From the NCBI GenBank assembly GCA_019751475.1, contig JAIENH010000418.1, forward strand, positions 1 through 14,732: 14,732 nucleotides of DNA, written 5' to 3'. This DNA is from Cyclobacteriaceae bacterium. Lineage in GTDB: Bacteria > Bacteroidota > Bacteroidia > Cytophagales > Cyclobacteriaceae. The position numbers and the translations under genes were made by a program. The notes below the pieces were generated by a model. That model saw only the letters and a list, made by a program, of their open reading frames with translations. It did not search any database and had not been told where the DNA came from. Shown in pieces: positions 1,517 to 8,560 of the stretch (the stretch's first letter is position 1; each line of letters begins with the position of its first letter).

Positions 1517-2053
1517 TCACTTCTTTGGCAGAGCCAAGTTATCAGAAGTAAAACCAAGTGGCTTGGCTTGCATGTTGAAGTAATTTTCTGAGGCACATAC
1601 CCACGTGATTTCTACCATCTGCTTTTCGTTGAAATAGGTTTTGAGTTTATCGAAGGTTTCTTGTGTGGCGGTTTTGGTGAGGCTGATTTGCTCGACATAA
1701 TCCAGGATTGCTTTCTCTTTGTCAGAATAATTAGGGCTATTGCGGAAGTTGAACATGTCTTTCAATCTATTAAGGTCCCACTTTTCTTTGACTGACATAT
1801 ACTCGATGGCGTTTGCACAAAACTTGCAATCGTTTAGGTGGGATACATAGTTGCGAATGAGCAAATTGGTATCGCGGTCGATGGATAGCTTTTTATCTGC
1901 ACTAAGGATTTTTATGGCCACTGAAAAAATAGCTGAACTGCGAGAGTAGATGACCAGTAGCGGAGAAACTACTTTGCCAAACTGCCGCTTGGACATGAAG
2001 TAGGCAAGTTTTAAAAAGAGTGATGACGGAGATTGGATCGGTTCGAGGCGCAT
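1517..2053 (-). CDS. AhpD-like carboxymuconolactone decarboxylase family protein
   Basis: A 178-residue, all-helical protein of the AhpD/CMD superfamily. The redox-type motif is C76-K-F-C79 in HLNDCKFCANAIEYM, where AhpD enzymes carry E-x11-C-x2-C-x3-H. Both cysteines are present, but the proton-relay histidine position is isoleucine (83) and the glutamate position (64) is leucine. Relatives reduce peroxides through the cysteine pair; with both relay residues absent, peroxidase activity is uncertain, and a thiol-redox or structural role is possible. There is no signal peptide, so it is cytoplasmic. The ATG at 2051-2053 has its own promoter region with a perfect 16-bp palindrome centred 57 bp upstream, so it is probably a member of the Crp/Fnr-linked group described here. 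The gene points away from the dehydratase tail to tail. Confidence 0.75.
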   Translation of the reverse strand: MRLEPIQSPSSLFLKLAYFMSKRQFGKVVSPLLVIYSRSSAIFSVAIKILSADKKLSIDRDTNLLIRNYVSHLNDCKFCANAIEYMSVKEKWDLNRLKDMFNFRNSPNYSDKEKAILDYVEQISLTKTATQETFDKLKTYFNEKQMVEITWVCASENYFNMQAKPLGFTSDNLALPKK

Positions 2054-2102
2054 AGTGTTGAATGTTTATACAGCAACATTATGCGAGGATTGAATAACTT
2101 CC

Positions 2103-2118
2103 TTTGACAATTGTCAAA
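2103..2118. promoter_or_regulatory. palindromic operator, copy 1 (Crp/Fnr-type site)
   Basis: TTTGACAATTGTCAAA is a perfect 16-bp palindrome with the FNR-like core TTGAC-N4-GTCAA. Its centre is 57 bp upstream of the AhpD-like ATG. On the minus strand a -7-like box TAATGTTG (2074-2081; Bacteroidota consensus TAnnTTTG, one mismatch) begins 29 nt downstream of the centre, placing the operator near -41 relative to the expected transcript start. This is the usual position for class II activation by Crp/Fnr proteins. Confidence 0.65.
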
Positions 2119-2138
2119 ATCGAATTACAAAAAAACCA

Positions 2139-2584
2139 CTACACCAGAACCCGTGACTTTTTTCGATGGTAGTAAAGCAAACTGAAAAGGAATGCCACAA
2201 ACCCGATGCAAAACCAGAAATCCCAAAACAAAAATGAGTTAAGAACTACCGTACCCTCCAAGACCATGCGGATAATTGAATGAGCGCACCCGATGTCCTT
2301 AGCGCTAACAAGATTATGTATAACCACCCCGCTATAAGTACAGGTTTGTGCCACTTTAACTTTCGGTGTTCGGCTGTAAGCCCGAGCGCAATGAACATAC
2401 CGATGAAACACGCCAGTGCCGCGAACAAGTTGTAATACCAAAACCATGTGCGAGTAAACGCTTGCGCTGCGCCCTCAGCAGGTAAGCCTATGTAATATCC
2501 GAACAGCCAAAGTATGTGAACTACTCCGAAAACTATGCACCAGCCAATGGTGAGGTATTTGATGAAAACGGGGTTGAGTCTCAT
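2139..2584 (-). pseudogene. DUF3995-like four-helix membrane protein, frameshifted
   Basis: Two overlapping minus-strand frames together form one small integral membrane protein of about 148 residues. The first frame (ATG 2584, stop 2246) has helices near YLTIGWCIVFGVVHILWLFG, YYNLFAALACFIGMFIALGL and LIAGWLYIILLALRTSGALI. It then degrades into a short tryptophan/arginine tail. The second frame, shifted by -1, resumes with IIRMVLEGTVVLNSFLF and a fourth helix WFCIGFVAFLFSLLYYHRKK ending at 2139. The break lies roughly between 2255 and 2290, with no obvious slippery heptamer, so programmed frameshifting is unlikely. The VHxxW...G...GLP pattern near the N-terminus resembles DUF3995 proteins, whose function is unknown. 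It is either a genuine one-base deletion or a sequencing error. It has its own palindrome-bearing promoter and is divergent from the AraC gene at 2698. Confidence 0.6.
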
Positions 2585-2628
2585 GGAAAAAATTTAGACC
2601 CAAATTTGAGGTGAGATAAGGAATTTCG

Positions 2629-2646
2629 TTTTGATAATTGTCAAAA
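2629..2646. promoter_or_regulatory. palindromic operator, copy 2 (Crp/Fnr-type site)
   Basis: TTTTGATAATTGTCAAAA is an 18-bp palindrome with one mismatched pair, in the divergent spacer between the DUF3995-like gene and the AraC gene. Its centre is about 53 bp upstream of the minus-strand ATG (2584). On the minus strand a -7-like box CAAATTTG (2601-2608) begins exactly 29 nt from the centre, as at copy 1. On the plus strand no box occurs at that spacing, so the leftward gene is the better target. Confidence 0.6.
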
Positions 2647-2679
2647 TCGTATGGTGTCAAAATATATGAAAGAGTTTTT

Positions 2680-2687
2680 TATCTTTC
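2680..2687 (+). promoter_or_regulatory. possible -7 box for the AraC gene
   Basis: TATCTTTC matches the Bacteroidota -7 consensus TAnnTTTG at all but the last base and lies 10 bp before the AraC start at 2698. No clear -33 TTTG was found at the usual distance, and the leader would be very short, so this is a weak call. Confidence 0.25.
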
Positions 2688-2697
2688 GCACTAGTTT

Positions 2698-3471
2698 ATG
2701 ACAATCAATCAATACAGTCCATCAGAGCCACTCAAGCCCTTTATTAAGGTTTACAAAGTTATTGAGAGCGATGAGGAAATTACTAATCGAGTGTTGCCCT
2801 CCACTTCGTTTGTATTGGCCATTCGGTTTAGGGGTAATATATCGTATGTAAATGATTCTAATAAAGTTGCGCTACCTCTTTGTACGCTTTCTGGTTTGAG
2901 GAAAACAGTCAGGTTTATTCAGTATGCACCTAGCAGTGCTTGCATTGTTGTACTCTTTACCGAATTGGGTGCGTCTCTATTTTTTCGAGAACCTCTTGAC
3001 GATTTCTTTGAACAAAGTATTTCATTGGATTATGTGTTACCGACTCACGAAGTAGCTGAGTTGATTGAACAAATTGATGGCGCATGTGATACTAAAGAGC
3101 GCATTGATGCGGTTGACGCATTTCTACTGTCGAAGCTTGTTCACTCAAAACAAGATATGCTTGTCAGCCAAGCGATAAAAGACATACACGCTGAACGGGG
3201 AATACTTAGTATAAACTCCCTTGCTGCGAGTTTAGCCATTAGTCAAGATGTGTTGGAGAAGCGCTTTCGAAAGGCAACCGGAGCAACGCCCAAACAATTT
3301 GCTTCCATTGTTCGAATGGATAATCTTATCAGGCACGTGGCAAAACAACCTTCTATTCTGGATAAAGTTTTTGAGGGCGGATATTATGACCAGGCACACT
3401 TCAGCAAAGAGTTTAAAGTATTCACCGGGCTTACCCCAAAGCACTTTTTTCAATCGGCTGTTTTTTGGTAG
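2698..3471 (+). CDS. AraC-family transcriptional regulator (DUF6597-type N-terminus)
   Basis: A 257-residue cytoplasmic regulator. Residues 1 to about 140 match the short beta-rich N-terminal sensor of DUF6597-type AraC proteins (start YSPSEPLKPFIKVYKVIES; VLPSTSFVLAIRF is typical). The two helix-turn-helix units lie at about 160-255, with SINSLAASLAISQDVLEKRF as the first HTH, followed by GATPKQFASIVRM and the signature GYYDQAHFSKEFKVFTGLTP. The effector is unknown. The ATG at 2698 sits just after a weak -7 box. The secreted ABM-like gene follows after 65 bp on the same strand and may be co-transcribed. It diverges from the DUF3995-like gene across a spacer holding palindrome copy 2. Family is clear; targets are inferred to be local. 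Confidence 0.85.
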   Translation: MTINQYSPSEPLKPFIKVYKVIESDEEITNRVLPSTSFVLAIRFRGNISYVNDSNKVALPLCTLSGLRKTVRFIQYAPSSACIVVLFTELGASLFFREPLDDFFEQSISLDYVLPTHEVAELIEQIDGACDTKERIDAVDAFLLSKLVHSKQDMLVSQAIKDIHAERGILSINSLAASLAISQDVLEKRFRKATGATPKQFASIVRMDNLIRHVAKQPSILDKVFEGGYYDQAHFSKEFKVFTGLTPKHFFQSAVFW

Positions 3472-3536
3472 CCATTGATTTTTTACAAGAATTAGTCTTA
3501 AAAAGACCTGATTCTTGCAGAGAAAATTTACACATA

Positions 3537-3956
3537 ATGAAATCCATCTGCAAACTCTGTCTTATCATCGCCATGATGACAAGCATTAGTGCCTTTTGTC
3601 AAAATCAATCAGCTAAAGAAGTTATGAGCAAGCCGAACCATGAATCAGTAGTTTACTTTGTCGACAAGTTTTCAGTGCCACGTGCGTCCTTTGAAGAATT
3701 TGAAAAACAAATGCAATACAACCGAAGCTTTGTGCGAAGTATATCAGGATTATTGAGCGACCAAGCTATGATTGGTAAAGACGCTGAGGGCAATGTAACA
3801 GTTCTTACCATTGCTACCTGGGAGAGCAAAGAGCATCTAGAAAAGGCAAAGGCATTAGTGCAAGGTGAGTTTAAAAGGATAAACTTTAACCCTGTTGATT
3901 TTTTTCAACGATTGAATGTGAAAATGGAGAGGCAGGTTTATATGCCCTATCAATAA
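3537..3956 (+). CDS. secreted ABM-like (dimeric alpha/beta barrel) protein
   Basis: The chosen ATG at 3537 gives 139 residues beginning with a clear signal peptide (MKSICKLCLIIAMMTSISAFC, charged then hydrophobic), probably cut after A or C near residue 21. An in-frame ATG at 3465 would overlap the AraC gene and bury this signal, so it was rejected. The mature part has the pattern of antibiotic-biosynthesis-monooxygenase/dimeric alpha-beta barrel proteins: VYFVDKFSVP strand, FEEFEKQMQYNRSFVRSI helix, VTVLTIATWESKEHLEKAKA strand and helix. The family includes small cofactor-free oxygenases and haem-degrading enzymes; the substrate cannot be read here. It is expected to act in the periplasm. 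Its stop lies 1 bp from the stop of the convergent Crp/Fnr gene, leaving no room for a separate terminator. Confidence 0.65.
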   Translation: MKSICKLCLIIAMMTSISAFCQNQSAKEVMSKPNHESVVYFVDKFSVPRASFEEFEKQMQYNRSFVRSISGLLSDQAMIGKDAEGNVTVLTIATWESKEHLEKAKALVQGEFKRINFNPVDFFQRLNVKMERQVYMPYQ

Positions 3957-3957
3957 A

Positions 3958-4521
3958 TCAAATCTGCGCCCGTATTCTACTCAACGTCTCCTGTGTAATT
4001 CCAAGAAAAGAAGCAATGATACCAAGCGGCACACGCTGTAGGGCAGATGGATTTCGGTCAACGAATTTTTTATAGCGTTCGGTGGCTGTAGCAAAGTGGA
4101 GGTCATCGAAGCGTTGTTGAAGCTGCACGATGCCAAAGTTCGACCACAGCCGTCCCAAAGTTTCGATATCATGATGCTTGTGGTACAATTGCTCTAATTC
4201 GTAATAAGGAATTTCTACAATCGTGCTGTCTTCCAATAGTTCAATGCCTCGCCTATCCGGAAGACGCGTGATGAAACTGATGACCGAAACGGCAAACGTA
4301 TTTTCCAAGCTAATCCAATCCGTTACGTCTTTGCCATCCTTGATGTAGAATGTGCGTGTGAGTCCTTCCTGAATAAAAAATAGGTGATTGCAAACTGCAC
4401 CCGCATGTAGTAAGGTATAGCCTTTGGGCAACTGACGTGTTTTAGTGATGGCGCCAAACGCATGTTTGCTTTCTAGCGATAGTGGGGAAATTTGCTCAAG
4501 CACATGAAATAAATTGTCCAT
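3958..4521 (-). CDS. Crp/Fnr-family transcriptional regulator
   Basis: A 187-residue regulator: cyclic-nucleotide-binding-like beta barrel at about 20-110 (LPKGYTLLHAGAVCNHLFFI, EGLTRTFYIKDGK), a dimerisation helix at about 118-140, and a C-terminal HTH at 160-187 with no wing beyond it, usual for this Bacteroidota subgroup. The recognition helix T176-QETLSRIRAQI has E178, S181 and R182, the E..SR pattern by which E. coli FNR reads TTGA half-sites. Only one cysteine (C44) is present, so there is no oxygen-sensing Fe-S cluster, and the phosphate-binding cassette residues of CRP are not recognisable. The signal is therefore unknown. Start: ATG 4521 (ATG 4542 also possible); a longer TTG frame from 4587 would run into the operator. 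The perfect palindrome lies 66 bp upstream, suggesting autoregulation. Confidence 0.85.
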   Translation of the reverse strand: MDNLFHVLEQISPLSLESKHAFGAITKTRQLPKGYTLLHAGAVCNHLFFIQEGLTRTFYIKDGKDVTDWISLENTFAVSVISFITRLPDRRGIELLEDSTIVEIPYYELEQLYHKHHDIETLGRLWSNFGIVQLQQRFDDLHFATATERYKKFVDRNPSALQRVPLGIIASFLGITQETLSRIRAQI

Positions 4522-4578
4522 TAAAGAGGCCTGTAAGAGCATTCGAAAACTTCTGAAAGATACGTGAAGTGCGTTGCT

Positions 4579-4596
4579 TTTTGACAATTGTCAAAA
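4579..4596. promoter_or_regulatory. palindromic operator, copy 3 (perfect; beside the crp/fnr gene)
   Basis: TTTTGACAATTGTCAAAA is a perfect 18-bp palindrome, the best of the four copies, in the divergent spacer between the Crp/Fnr gene (minus) and the methyltransferase gene (plus). On the plus strand a -7-like CTCTTTTG (4617-4624) begins 29 nt from the centre, the same distance as at the other copies, although only its TTTG half fits the consensus. On the minus strand the nearest box is TATCTTTC at 25 nt. It may therefore control both directions: activation of the methyltransferase-hydrolase pair and autoregulation. Confidence 0.7.
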
Positions 4597-4668
4597 GAAG
4601 AGTCTTCAAAATCTTGCTCTTTTGATGTTGCGTCCTGCAGTTGCTCTTGATGCCATCCATATTGAAAC

Positions 4669-5316
4669 ATGAATTCTTTTGCAGATACACAAACGATTAT
4701 ACGGTGTTATGATAAGACAGCTATACACTATGCATCAAAATTCAGTGATGAACTAAGCAAAAAATTCTTTGAGCGAACTTACTTAAAAGCCTTTGCTGAC
4801 AGATACCAAAGTATGAATGCCTGTCTGTTGGATGCGGGATGTTGAATTGGACACATCTCCAAGTATCTGGCTGACTACGGATTTAAAACTATTGGTGTAG
4901 ACCTCTCACCGCGAATGATACAAAAAGCCAACGAGTTGTATCCTGGTGTCTCGTTTGAGGTGGCGGACATGCGAGCCATGCGATTTCCCGATGGGTATTT
5001 CTCAGGTGTGCTGGCCTTGTATTCCATAATCCATTTTGATTATCAGACTATAAACGATGTCTTTACGGAAATCAATAGGGTACTGATTGGAAGAGGTGGC
5101 TTCTTACTCTCATTCCATCTGGGCAATGAAGTAATGACACGCCATGAGTTTTTAGGAGAAGCCGTGACCATTGACCTTCACTTGCTTCAAGTAGAGCAGA
5201 TTCGCCAGTTACTTGTGACCAATGGGTTCAACGTGATTGAAATTATTGAGCGTTATCCTAATCCTGAAATAGAGTACCCAAGCAAGCGGGCTTATTTATT
5301 GGCAACGAAGTTATAG
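4669..5316 (+). pseudogene. class I SAM-dependent methyltransferase with in-frame TGA
   Basis: One continuous frame of 215 codons from ATG 4669 to TAG 5316 is interrupted only by TGA at 4843-4845 (codon 59). The surrounding sequence reads LLDAGC-stop-IGHISKYLADYG, where class I methyltransferases have the SAM-binding motif I DAGCGxGhxxxxLA. The stop thus replaces the motif's second glycine, one base (GGA to TGA) away. Beyond it the domain is intact: GVDLS (motif II, acidic residue for ribose), VADMRAMRFPDGYFSGVLALYSIIHF (motifs III-IV region) and a normal C-terminus. As written, only a 58-residue fragment or an internal start at 4915 lacking motif I could be made, neither able to bind SAM. 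Neighbouring genes use TGA as stop. It is 3 bp upstream of the hydrolase gene, so they form an operon. Confidence 0.75.
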
Positions 5317-5319
5317 AAG

Positions 5320-6204
5320 ATGAAGACATTTATTGGTAAACTCATTGGCTTGTACCTAAACTTACTTGCAGTGATAGCTCCACGAAAAGCTGCCATTAAA
5401 GGGTTTGCCTTGTTCTGCCATCCCTTTCGTGGAAAGTTGAAAGACTATCATCATTCTTTTTTTAATAGTGCGGAGAAGTTTGATTTTATGGTTCATGATG
5501 AAAAAATTCAAGCCTATCGCTGGGGCAATGGTGCAAAGAAGGTTTTGTTTTTGCACGGATGGCAGAGCCATAGTTTTCGGTGGAGGAATTACATCGAGGC
5601 ACTCGATAAATCAACGCATACCCTATTTGCAATGGATGCGCCCGCCCACGGCTTGAGTACGGGCAAGGCAATGACGATACCTCTTTATTGCGAAGCGATA
5701 CTAAAACTGATAGCTGTATCAGGTAAACCCGATGTGGTGGTTGCACATTCAGCTGGAAGTTTTACTTCTATTTACACCTTCCATCATTACCCTGCCCTCT
5801 CACCCTTGAAAATGGTGGCTATGGCACCGCCTGGAGAAGCGGAAGAGATGGTCGAGTTTTTCAAAAGTAAACTTGGGCTAAGCCATCGATGCCTGAACCT
5901 GATTCTTCAACAATTTGAAAAAACAGTCAACCAATTACCAAGTTATTTCTCCGCCCCATACTTTGCTGCTTCGCTGAAGTTTCCAGGATTGATTATACAT
6001 GATGAGAAAGATGACGAAACGCCTGTGGAGAATTCTAAAAACATTCACCGAGCTTGGAAAGGCTCGCGACTGATGTTGACAAAAGGCAACGGTCACAACC
6101 TGAAATCACCTGATGTACTAAAAGCAGTTTTGGATTTTATCCAAAGTGAAGACAACATGCATAATAAAAACGGAGCCGCTGTTATCAGCAAACAAACTAA
6201 GTGA
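5320..6204 (+). CDS. alpha/beta hydrolase
   Basis: A 294-residue alpha/beta-hydrolase fold enzyme. Visible elements: oxyanion-hole HGW at 79-81, DAPAHGLS at 106-113, nucleophile elbow A142-H-S144-A-G146 with catalytic Ser144, the acid probably D231 in HDEKDDETP, and His259 in GNGHN. The triad is complete, so the enzyme should be active on an ester or similar bond; the substrate is not evident. The N-terminal 30 residues contain one hydrophobic stretch (IGLYLNLLAVIA) that could be a membrane anchor, and a cap helix region spans about 170-210. The gene starts 3 bp after the methyltransferase stop and should share its palindrome-containing promoter. The stop is TGA. Confidence 0.82.
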   Translation: MKTFIGKLIGLYLNLLAVIAPRKAAIKGFALFCHPFRGKLKDYHHSFFNSAEKFDFMVHDEKIQAYRWGNGAKKVLFLHGWQSHSFRWRNYIEALDKSTHTLFAMDAPAHGLSTGKAMTIPLYCEAILKLIAVSGKPDVVVAHSAGSFTSIYTFHHYPALSPLKMVAMAPPGEAEEMVEFFKSKLGLSHRCLNLILQQFEKTVNQLPSYFSAPYFAASLKFPGLIIHDEKDDETPVENSKNIHRAWKGSRLMLTKGNGHNLKSPDVLKAVLDFIQSEDNMHNKNGAAVISKQTK

Positions 6205-6265
6205 GGATGAAACGCTACGCAGCTGCTATTAACTACAAACAAATTGGTTGGAATCTTTGGTTTTA

Positions 6266-6724
6266 TCAAAAACCATCTCGCACATCCCAGCTTTCTAGAT
6301 TTAACTTGTTGAGGTCATCCCTCACCCTGTCGATGGAGATGCTACCTGCACCACTGAAAAGCAGAAAGAGTGAACCCGCTAGCATTGTTATTGCCGGAAA
6401 GGTATTTGTGTATGTATCACCTATATGAACGAAGCCAATAGCACAGATGAAGTTAATGACCATCACTATTCCGGCCGCGTGTGTTAAGAAGCCAAGTATG
6501 AAAAGTAAGCCGCAAATGAATTGACAGTAGGCAGACAGGTAAGCTGAGAAGAATGGAAAAGGAATGCCTTGTGTTTGAAACCAACCGCCAATGCCCTGCA
6601 TGGCTTCTGCACTAAAAATTTTATCGTGCGTGCCGTAGACAAGGTGAAAGCCAATGAGTAAACGAATGAACACCGGAGCGAAAGGACTGAGTCGTTCGAA
6701 GAAAGCATTAAAGTTTTTATGCAT
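6266..6724 (-). CDS. DoxX family membrane protein
   Basis: A 152-residue, four-helix integral membrane protein. It has the DoxX pattern: first helix FIRLLIGFHLVYGTHDKI, an amphipathic loop GGWFQTQGIPFP, second helix AYCQFICGLLFILGFLTHAAG, third VMVINFICAIGFVHIG, fourth AITMLAGSLFLLFSGAG. DoxX proteins are linked in various bacteria to quinone- or thiol-dependent redox complexes, often beside oxidoreductases; no catalytic residues are defined. It lies 3 bp downstream of the NIPSNAP-SnoaL gene and is the second gene of that operon. Its stop codon is convergent with the alpha/beta hydrolase, 61 bp away. Confidence 0.82.
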   Translation of the reverse strand: MHKNFNAFFERLSPFAPVFIRLLIGFHLVYGTHDKIFSAEAMQGIGGWFQTQGIPFPFFSAYLSAYCQFICGLLFILGFLTHAAGIVMVINFICAIGFVHIGDTYTNTFPAITMLAGSLFLLFSGAGSISIDRVRDDLNKLNLESWDVRDGF

Positions 6725-6727
6725 CGG

Positions 6728-7501
6728 TTATTTGATAGGAGTAATCTGTGCATGCACACACCACCAGCGCCCATTTTCTTTTTTGTAGGTATCGGTGTAA
6801 ACAGACACGCCCGAAGAAACGACTCCCTTTACTCTGCGAGTCCAACTGGTTTTAGCCCTGACCAAAGCCATATCGCCAAACAATCGGATAAACTCATCTT
6901 CCATTTTGAAAGAAGTAAACCCGCTGCTCTTATAAGAAGTCGCCCAATCTTTCATGTATTCTTTGCGGCTAACGATAGCACCTGCATTTTCAATGCAAAC
7001 AAAATCTTCATGGATTATCTCATTGTGCGCTGTCGTGTCTTGCGCGATATAATTCTTGATGAACTGTGCATTCAACCTACTGAGTTGGTCGAGGTCGTCC
7101 ATTTCGGTATTCATGTTGACTTTATTTAGTTGAGTTCTTGGTATTACAATAGTGGTGTAGCTTTCAATGAGGTTGAGGATTGCTTCTCTTGGCCCATTTT
7201 TCCATTCAGGGCTACCGTAAAATGCATCCTCTGTGCTTTGCCTGTTGGCCAGGCTTGTGAACGCACGGGCTAGAAAAAAAGAATTTTCATCGTGAAGCGA
7301 AGAGCCGTAGGCGACTACTTCTATTTTCCATTTTTTGAGCATCGGCAGAGCTTGCTCATCAAACAGTTTCTGAAACTGGCTGCGGCTGCCGGGCTTAAGA
7401 TTGTACGAACGGATTTCGATTACATCTTCCATGGGCTGGGCGGTTAGGTTGAGTGCCAGTGCGCAACAGAAAAGCGTGAGGCAATAGTTGATTGTTTTCA
7501 T
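6728..7501 (-). CDS. secreted NIPSNAP and SnoaL/DUF4440-like two-domain protein
   Basis: A 257-residue protein with a Sec signal peptide (residues 1-22, ending LTAQ) followed by two small-molecule-binding folds. Residues about 25-125 match NIPSNAP (dimeric alpha/beta barrel: VIEIRSYNLKPGSRSQFQKLF, FFLARAFTSLANRQSTEDAFY, IVIPRT). Residues about 135-255 match the SnoaL/NTF2-like DUF4440 group (NAQFIKNYIAQDTTAHNEII, FVCIENAGAIVSRKEYM, YTDTYKKENGRWWCVHAQIT). Each is usually a stand-alone protein. No catalytic residues can be assigned with confidence; a periplasmic role in binding or modifying a small hydrophobic compound is inferred. The linker contains an in-frame ATG pair near MNTEMDDLDQ. Palindrome copy 4 lies 69 bp upstream, in the spacer shared with the AraC gene. 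Confidence 0.75.
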   Translation of the reverse strand: MKTINYCLTLFCCALALNLTAQPMEDVIEIRSYNLKPGSRSQFQKLFDEQALPMLKKWKIEVVAYGSSLHDENSFFLARAFTSLANRQSTEDAFYGSPEWKNGPREAILNLIESYTTIVIPRTQLNKVNMNTEMDDLDQLSRLNAQFIKNYIAQDTTAHNEIIHEDFVCIENAGAIVSRKEYMKDWATSYKSSGFTSFKMEDEFIRLFGDMALVRAKTSWTRRVKGVVSSGVSVYTDTYKKENGRWWCVHAQITPIK

Positions 7502-7562
7502 AGATGAAAGAAAACATATAGTGACGGAACTGGCCTTTAAAATCTTGCTATGTCATCTCTTT

Positions 7563-7578
7563 TTTGATTAATGTCAAA
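7563..7578. promoter_or_regulatory. palindromic operator, copy 4 (degenerate Crp/Fnr-type site)
   Basis: TTTGATTAATGTCAAA keeps the TTGA-N6-TCAA core with mismatches in the inner part. It lies in the 174-bp divergent spacer between the NIPSNAP-SnoaL gene and the AraC gene at 7676. On the plus strand a -7-like TATATTTA (7600-7607, consensus except the last base) begins 29 nt from the centre, the spacing found at the other three copies, giving a leader of roughly 64 nt before 7676. No matching box occurs on the minus strand at that distance. Confidence 0.5.
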
Positions 7579-7675
7579 GTCTTCTTGTGCTTGGTGACAT
7601 ATATTTATGACCAGATAAAAGCAGGATTTTGAAGGAGGAACTAAGATAGACTTCGTAAATTTTGCACCCATAGAT

Positions 7676-8560
7676 ATGGCAGAACCCAATACCACGTTTC
7701 AAAAAGTCACGCAAGTAGAAAAGGTGTTTTCGGAAAACCTCTTTGCTTCTGACTTTTATCAGGTAAAGAGTTGGGGGTTTGATTTTGGCGAAGACAAAAA
7801 GACGAGCGTGGGTTTTAATGATTGCCTCTGCTTTGTGTATGTGCGAAGGGGTTGGTTTCTGTTTGACCTATCGAAGGAATCGTACAACATGCACACGGGG
7901 CATATTGTGATTGACAAGCCTAATTATGAATATCGCTTACGGCCTTCGGCTGGTGCGTGTACCATCTTTAATTTCAGTAATGAATTTTACGCTCAGTTTG
8001 TAGAAGACCTAAACCTGAAAACATCTTTCTTTTTTGGTAACGACAACTTGTTGTCGTTGATGCTCAAGTCAAGCCCCGAGACGGACTACCTCCATCACCA
8101 GATAGTAAGCAAAGGAAGAGAGGCGGGACGCTTGGAGATGGACCAACTGGTGCTGGATTTGCTTCAGCAAATTGTTGCCCTTGTATCCAACGAATCATTG
8201 GATGATGATTTGAACGGTGCACTTAGGCAAAACCATATCGGCACGATAGAACGAGCCAAGCAGTTTATACACGAGAATTTTTCAACTGATATTTCACTGT
8301 ACCAGATAGCTGACTACAGTTGCGTAAGCCCATTTCACTTTAGTCGTGTGTTTAAAAAGTTCACGTCTTTTACTCCACATCAGTATTTGCAAAACGTACG
8401 ATTGAAACATGGTGAAGTCTTACTAAAAAACAGCACCCTGCCCGTATCAGATATTTCGCACCAATCGGGTTTTAACACGGCTGAATATTTTGCGACCGCC
8501 TTTAAACAGAAGTATAGGATGAGCCCTTCGGAGTTTAGGAATACAATTGGTTCTAATTAG
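7676..8560 (+). CDS. AraC-family transcriptional regulator
   Basis: A 294-residue cytoplasmic regulator. The N-terminal half (to about 180) is a cupin-like sensor domain (CLCFVYVRRGWFLFDLSKESYNMHTGHIVID is typical beta-barrel sequence). The AraC DNA-binding domain is at about 190-290: ERAKQFIHENFSTDISLYQI, CVSPFHFSRVFKKFTSFTPHQYL, then SDISHQSGFNTAEYFATAFKQKYRMSPSEFR. The ATG at 7676 is the only plausible start because an in-frame stop lies two codons upstream. A GGAGG at 7634-7638 is too far away to serve as its ribosome binding site. It is divergent from the NIPSNAP-DoxX operon, which is therefore its most likely target, and convergent with the DUF2141 gene (6 bp gap). The ligand is unknown. 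Confidence 0.85.
   Translation: MAEPNTTFQKVTQVEKVFSENLFASDFYQVKSWGFDFGEDKKTSVGFNDCLCFVYVRRGWFLFDLSKESYNMHTGHIVIDKPNYEYRLRPSAGACTIFNFSNEFYAQFVEDLNLKTSFFFGNDNLLSLMLKSSPETDYLHHQIVSKGREAGRLEMDQLVLDLLQQIVALVSNESLDDDLNGALRQNHIGTIERAKQFIHENFSTDISLYQIADYSCVSPFHFSRVFKKFTSFTPHQYLQNVRLKHGEVLLKNSTLPVSDISHQSGFNTAEYFATAFKQKYRMSPSEFRNTIGSN

Follow-up and report, generated by a model that had tools for sequence, protein, structure and literature searches.

The window analysed here was a complete 14.7-kb contig (JAIENH010000418.1, 14,732 nucleotides) from the genome of a Cyclobacteriaceae bacterium (G000; 3,931,120 bases in 813 contigs, 90% complete). It carries the gene of a Crp/Fnr-type regulator (crp) together with four copies of one palindrome, which had been interpreted in an earlier note as the sites of a compact, autoregulated Crp/Fnr regulon. 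The four palindromes were found exactly where they had been placed (2103-2118, 2629-2646, 4579-4596 and 7563-7578), and three of them do lie in divergent spacers (2630, 4580 and 7563), the site at 2103 being located between two same-strand genes. The regulator and the genes predicted to be controlled from these sites are listed below.

3958..4521, minus strand: Crp/Fnr-type (FNR-like) regulator, crp; 187 amino acids, helix TQETLSRIR at the very end, no wing, single cysteine (C44).
1517..2053, minus strand: AhpD-like (carboxymuconolactone-decarboxylase-like) gene, predicted target; CxxC at C76/C79.
2246..2584, minus strand: DUF3995-like small membrane protein of 112 amino acids, predicted target; DUF3995 E 0.057, below the cut-off.
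4669..5316, plus strand: methyltransferase, predicted target; in two frames, PF13649 on the second part.
5320..6204, plus strand: alpha/beta hydrolase downstream of the methyltransferase, predicted to be a target co-transcribed with it; PF12146/PF00561.
7676..8560, plus strand: AraC-type regulator, probable target; HTH_18, E 3.4e-21.

The loose form of the palindrome, TTTGAYNNNNRTCAAA, was detected in the window at 2103, 2630, 4580 and 7563. With at most one mismatch, TTTGAN6TCAAA gave seven matches in the window against 1.98 expected, a number reached in 0 of 200 shuffles, and its zero-mismatch matches were exactly the four sites already noted. In the whole of G000 the loose form was found at 23 places (9 for the backward control), 4 of the 23 being inside the window; when 23 sites were placed at random, a group of four spanning no more than 5,476 bp arose in 21 of 200,000 trials. 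The tighter form, TTTGAYNANTGTCAAA, has four exact copies in G000, every one inside the window, and since its forward matches with at most two mismatches numbered 49 against 35 in the control, the weaker copies elsewhere in the genome are mostly background. The copy beside crp, described previously as the perfect one, is indeed perfect over 18 bp (4579-4596), but not the sole one, as 2103-2118 is also a perfect 16-mer. An open-frame extension of crp (TTG at 4587) reaches into the site at 4580, though the start aligning with the relatives of the regulator is at 4521.

The regulator carries a cyclic-nucleotide-binding-like domain (PF00027, 33.6 bits at a cut-off of 27.5), and a dimer helix and a C-terminal helix-turn-helix in the CRP/FNR arrangement. 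The beta wing usual in the CRP/FNR superfamily is absent behind the recognition helix, which spans residues 177-186 of a protein ending at 187. The cysteines for an FNR [4Fe-4S] cluster were not found, only one cysteine being present among the 187 residues, too few for the regulator to hold an FNR-type [4Fe-4S] cluster on its own. In the regulator tree the protein fell among the 21 rows that form a DoxX/AhpD clade (support 85/93, not starred). C44 is conserved in its closest clade, and this residue and the CxxC of the AhpD-like target together hint at a thiol or redox signal.

For the comparison with relatives, 109 crp loci were used (the top 29 other than that of the window, and the top 80 of 108 found in a second search), 19 of which were dropped as near-copies, leaving 90 non-redundant ones (<90% identity). 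The site of a relative was taken to be a palindrome matching at 11/12 or better within -40 to +200 of the crp stop codon. Co-occurrence of the site with relatives of the regulator, which had been proposed along with a genome scan as the check on the regulon, was borne out: a site was present at 79 of the 90 loci, against 7 of 259 equally sized control windows. In 68 of the 79 its start falls from -5 to +31 relative to the end of the stop codon, which places it in the spacer separating crp from the following gene, and a site within the 400 nt upstream of crp was found in 3 of 88 relatives. The 11 relatives without a site comprise seven whose recognition helix carries V in place of E (V-type), three E-type ones (L075, L131 and L154) and L173, which is cut by a contig end and was counted as neither.

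The genes next to the site in relatives are GH3 glycosidases (18), DoxX-like genes (16), YiaA (9), FAD enzymes, esterases and xylose-isomerase-like genes (4 each), AhpD-like genes and amidases (3 each) and smaller groups; the names were given from Pfam runs for one member of seven clusters, 'amidase' being assigned by eye. The eight labels require at least 10 changes on the regulator tree. The closest clade comprises 19 non-redundant loci, and at 16 of them the target is a DoxX-like gene. A homologue of the AhpD-like gene of the window stands directly after crp and site in L052/L112, L053, L054 and L130, with the CxxC invariant in 4/4 homologues. Its close relatives (53-55%) were found in 3 of 294 other genomes, all beside crp and site; at the next seven loci fetched (33-37%) there was no exact site and no crp match. 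No relative of the DUF3995-like gene was found in the other 294 genomes searched, nor was the whole gene set of the window found elsewhere.

A count of exact sites over 65 named, non-redundant loci, each spanning at most 16.5 kb, gave none in 14, one in 47 and two in 4, against four in the window. A three-site local regulon was seen around another crp (5175-5744 of L222, G010:C2:398000-409000), with sites at 3476, 5156 and 5972 and in-phase -7 boxes (defined below) of 5/6, 6/6 and 6/6, a case independent of the window. In L180, crp and site are followed by genes for a small membrane-like protein, a TetR-like protein, a hydrolase 38% identical to that of the window and a SnoaL-like protein (named by eye, the hydrolase excepted). 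Two palindromes 31 nt apart lie behind crp, upstream of an esterase gene, in L134, L135, L136 and L139 (Chryseobacterium). Two site-bearing relatives belong to organisms outside Bacteroidota, namely L149 (Glaciecola, a gammaproteobacterium) and L145 (Pyrinomonadaceae, an acidobacterial metagenome genome), which suggests transfer of the module.

The residues of the E-x-x-S-R helix have a role in DNA recognition by FNR. The window regulator has this helix (QETLSR) together with TTGA half-sites, and TTTGA sites were present in 79 of the 82 E-type relatives, E being found in the helix of all 79 site-bearing ones; the FNR type proposed for the half-sites is therefore supported. The V-type regulators had a TTTGA site in 0 of 7 cases and TTTAAC..GTAAAA in 5 of 7. 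These five (L067, L068, L069, L074 and L064) carry the latter site behind crp, three of them upstream of FAD-dependent enzymes. The association of E or V with the site gave p = 1.7e-8 with related rows treated as independent. The same residue-base rule is described in the available part of Rodionov et al. 2005 (PMC1274295), in which changes of E181 in HcpR2 give GTAAC.

The distance from the palindrome to a downstream -7 box was also constant. A match of at least 5/6 to TAnnTTTG, the -7 box of Bacteroidota sigma-A promoters, was found 21 nt behind the palindrome at 64 of the 79 loci and 22 nt behind it at 6, together 70 of 79, and the next commonest offset (43) was found in 5. At four esterase loci, some of which have tandem sites, there was no box 21-22 nt behind the best-scoring site. 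A crp-blind scan of 295 genomes for the palindrome, 8-38 nt and an exact box gave 114 matches listed, of which 40 had a spacing of 21 nt and 13 one of 22 nt, with no more than 8 for any other spacing, against 22 for the reversed-pattern control (hand sum of the table). Among 30 scan loci fetched, an adjacent crp relative was present at 7 of 10 with 21 nt (two of the seven repeating L052 and L053), 1 of 2 with 22 nt and 0 of 18 with other spacings. A near-identical 36-mer (palindrome, 12 nt and box) was observed in four genomes of different genera (L091, L099 and the scan rows of G020 and G096); crp was not found in the two of these loci that were fetched, and the 36-mer is probably part of some other conserved gene. 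In F. psychrophilum, TAnnTTTG is located at -12 to -5 according to part of the text of PMC9723704. With the box at this position, the 21-nt gap puts the palindrome at -49 to -34, centred at -41.5, which is the position of a class II activator, and we infer that the operators are centred near -41.5 of the predicted start.

The palindromes could alternatively be terminators, or AT-rich inverted repeats that no regulator reads; in relatives, the position just 3' of the crp stop codon would be a possible place for a terminator. This reading was rejected as scarcely credible: the arms consist of six AT-rich bases around four, the distance to the -7 box is constant, the helix covaries with the site, and the palindromes of the window lie upstream of genes, three of them in divergent spacers.

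For the window, an in-phase -7 box was defined as TAnnTTTG 21 nt behind the palindrome, with the box model and the site selection taken from relatives only; each box was ranked among 60 offsets, the ranks being computed after the 21-nt rule had already been seen in the relatives and in the window. The predicted operators and boxes are as follows.

2103..2118, no strand: operator 1, TTTGACAATTGTCAAA, perfect; faces the AhpD-like gene, minus-strand in-phase box rank 1/60.
2074..2081, minus strand: predicted -7 box TAATGTTG, 5/6, AhpD-like gene; p = 0.012 against all window 8-mers.
2630..2645, no strand: operator 2, TTTGATAATTGTCAAA; faces the DUF3995-like gene, minus-strand in-phase box rank 1/60.
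2601..2608, minus strand: predicted -7 box CAAATTTG, 5/6, DUF3995-like gene; p = 0.0007 against all window 8-mers.
4580..4595, no strand: operator 3, TTTGACAATTGTCAAA (18-bp perfect copy at 4579-4596), between crp and the methyltransferase; faces the methyltransferase.
4617..4624, plus strand: predicted -7 box CTCTTTTG, 4/6, methyltransferase-hydrolase genes; p = 0.005 against all window 8-mers.
7563..7578, no strand: operator 4, TTTGATTAATGTCAAA; geometry favours AraC at 7676 over NIPSNAP, in-phase box rank 2/60 on the plus and 44/60 on the minus strand.
7600..7607, plus strand: predicted -7 box TATATTTA, 5/6, towards AraC at 7676; p = 0.016 against all window 8-mers, which makes it the weakest box.

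The in-phase box of operator 3 ranked 1/60 on the plus strand and 45/60 on the minus strand (towards crp). In the opposite directions the ranks out of 60 were 20 for the 3' end of the DUF3995-like gene, 40 for a second AraC gene (at 2698), 45 for crp and 44 for NIPSNAP. Since ranks of 1, 1, 1 and 2 were obtained at the 21-nt offset one way only, each site would face a single gene, in no case crp. The compact regulon proposed earlier was thus retained for the AhpD-like, DUF3995-like and methyltransferase-hydrolase genes, each with an in-phase box of rank 1/60. Its autoregulatory part was not: the sequence 21 nt from operator 3 towards crp (TTTCAGAA) is no -7 box, upstream sites are rare in the relatives (3/88), and autoregulation of crp is unsupported. 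Where NIPSNAP or AraC had been named as targets, AraC at 7676 was upheld, weakly. Neither AraC at 2698 nor NIPSNAP-DoxX has an in-phase box, and both are unsupported as targets by promoter geometry; they are still conceivable because DoxX-like genes are the target at most loci of the closest clade.

The family name of the AhpD-like gene is weak, with sub-threshold NCBIfam matches only and no Pfam match. The first part of the methyltransferase (4669-4845) stops at 4843-4845 inside the DAGC motif and what follows is open in a different frame (4915-5316 listed), which may be a real frameshift or an assembly error.

The sites, their spacing, the covariation with the helix and the recurrence beside relatives are read directly from the DNA, and on this footing it is likely that the regulator at 3958-4521 and the four sites form a compact local regulon with class II activation of the genes faced. 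The Crp/Fnr-type protein, presumably dimeric, would bind all four palindromes and switch on the genes they face, activation being the presumed sign of control; at -41.5 it would most likely replace a missing -33 element as a class II activator. The targets would be the AhpD-like, DUF3995-like and methyltransferase-hydrolase genes and probably AraC at 7676, and crp would not be one by the 21-nt rule.

Several observations weigh against this interpretation. Three of the 82 E-type relatives have no site and 9 of the 79 site-bearing relatives have no in-phase box; the gene order differs, as the site follows crp in the relatives and does not in the window, where three genes separate the AhpD-like gene from crp. 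The absence of TTTG 17-22 nt before the box in 79/79 is largely forced by the palindrome itself. The V-type regulators are few and related, four of the five with the TTTAAC site being in one clade, and with about two independent cases the E/V covariation is good, not overwhelming, evidence. No box of the window is a perfect TAnnTTTG, and the exact palindrome-plus-box pattern gave 0 matches in the own genome in the scan of 8-38 nt spacings.

The same protein and sites might instead serve repression, or activation one way and repression the other way in the divergent spacers (crp, AraC at 2698, NIPSNAP-DoxX), which we consider unlikely. Three sites would cover or adjoin opposite promoters there, and the preference of the closest clade for DoxX-like targets (16/19) makes NIPSNAP-DoxX a natural target; the fixed position at -41.5, however, suits activation and not a steric block, the opposite readings (40, 45 and 44 of 60) are without an in-phase box, and a site upstream of crp is rare among relatives.

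Activation by the adjacent protein also has to be weighed against the possibility that the sites are read by a different Crp/Fnr paralogue that is encoded in this genome and shares the helix. G000 has 12 PF00027 matches, one of which (L045, G000:C621) has an SKETLSR helix and its own palindrome, TTTGACATTTATCAAC, just 3' of its stop codon; TTTG stands in phase there, in a box scored 4/6 by eye. It is a second, one-site copy of the module in the same genome. This alternative is very improbable, since the four sites flank the window crp and no other, the site adjoins the gene itself in relatives, and L045 alone had the ETLSR helix among the 11 other matches looked at. Because of the conserved proximity and the operator/helix covariation, the adjacent Crp/Fnr protein very probably reads the four sites.

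Compared with FNR (A. fischeri structures; E. coli FNR box TTGATnnnnATCAA), the window protein has one cysteine and no FNR-type [4Fe-4S] cluster, and it ends at the recognition helix without a wing; its regulon is local and that of FNR is global. HcpR1, DNR and HcpR2, in the available part of Rodionov et al. 2005 (PMC1274295), are likewise CRP/FNR proteins without the FNR cysteines, and HcpR1, with its motif TTGACnnnnGTCAA and small local regulons, resembles the window system. These proteins, however, control hcp, frdX or denitrification genes, none of which is among the proteins annotated here, and no -7 spacing rule is found in that part of the paper. Of the targets of the nitrogen-oxide regulators HcpR, DNR and NnrR, no hcp, nir, nor or nos gene was found among the window proteins scanned. 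The only sequence relative in the PDB at E <= 0.01 was 3dn7 (1.6e-18), a cyclic nucleotide binding regulatory protein from Cytophaga hutchinsonii, with about 146 residues in the solved chain against 187 in the window regulator; no operator or target was found for it. A survey of the same superfamily (Krishnaswamy and Seshasayee 2025, PMC12531629) discusses class II activation, and in its main text the words Bacteroidetes, Bacteroidota and TTGA never occur. The module is apparently undescribed in the literature searched, by a thin search in which the slash spelling of CRP/FNR hampered matching.

The four-site window is very probably a small self-contained control circuit of a widespread type. 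We lean towards the broader view that a short wingless Crp/Fnr family, mostly of Bacteroidota, acts as a plug-in cassette (regulator, operator at -41.5 and -7 box) placed upstream of whatever gene, such as those for a GH3 glycosidase, DoxX-like protein, YiaA, AhpD-like protein, amidase, FAD enzyme and others. E or V in the helix would set the operator, and the spread of the operator to four promoters here would have turned a one-gene switch into a compact regulon. The window offers a compact test case, with one regulator and four promoters in 5.5 kb. If this view is true, the targets and the direction of control of many Bacteroidota Crp/Fnr genes could be read straight from sequence, and the phylum, whose promoters are unusual, would gain a general rule for sigma-A promoters that depend on an activator.

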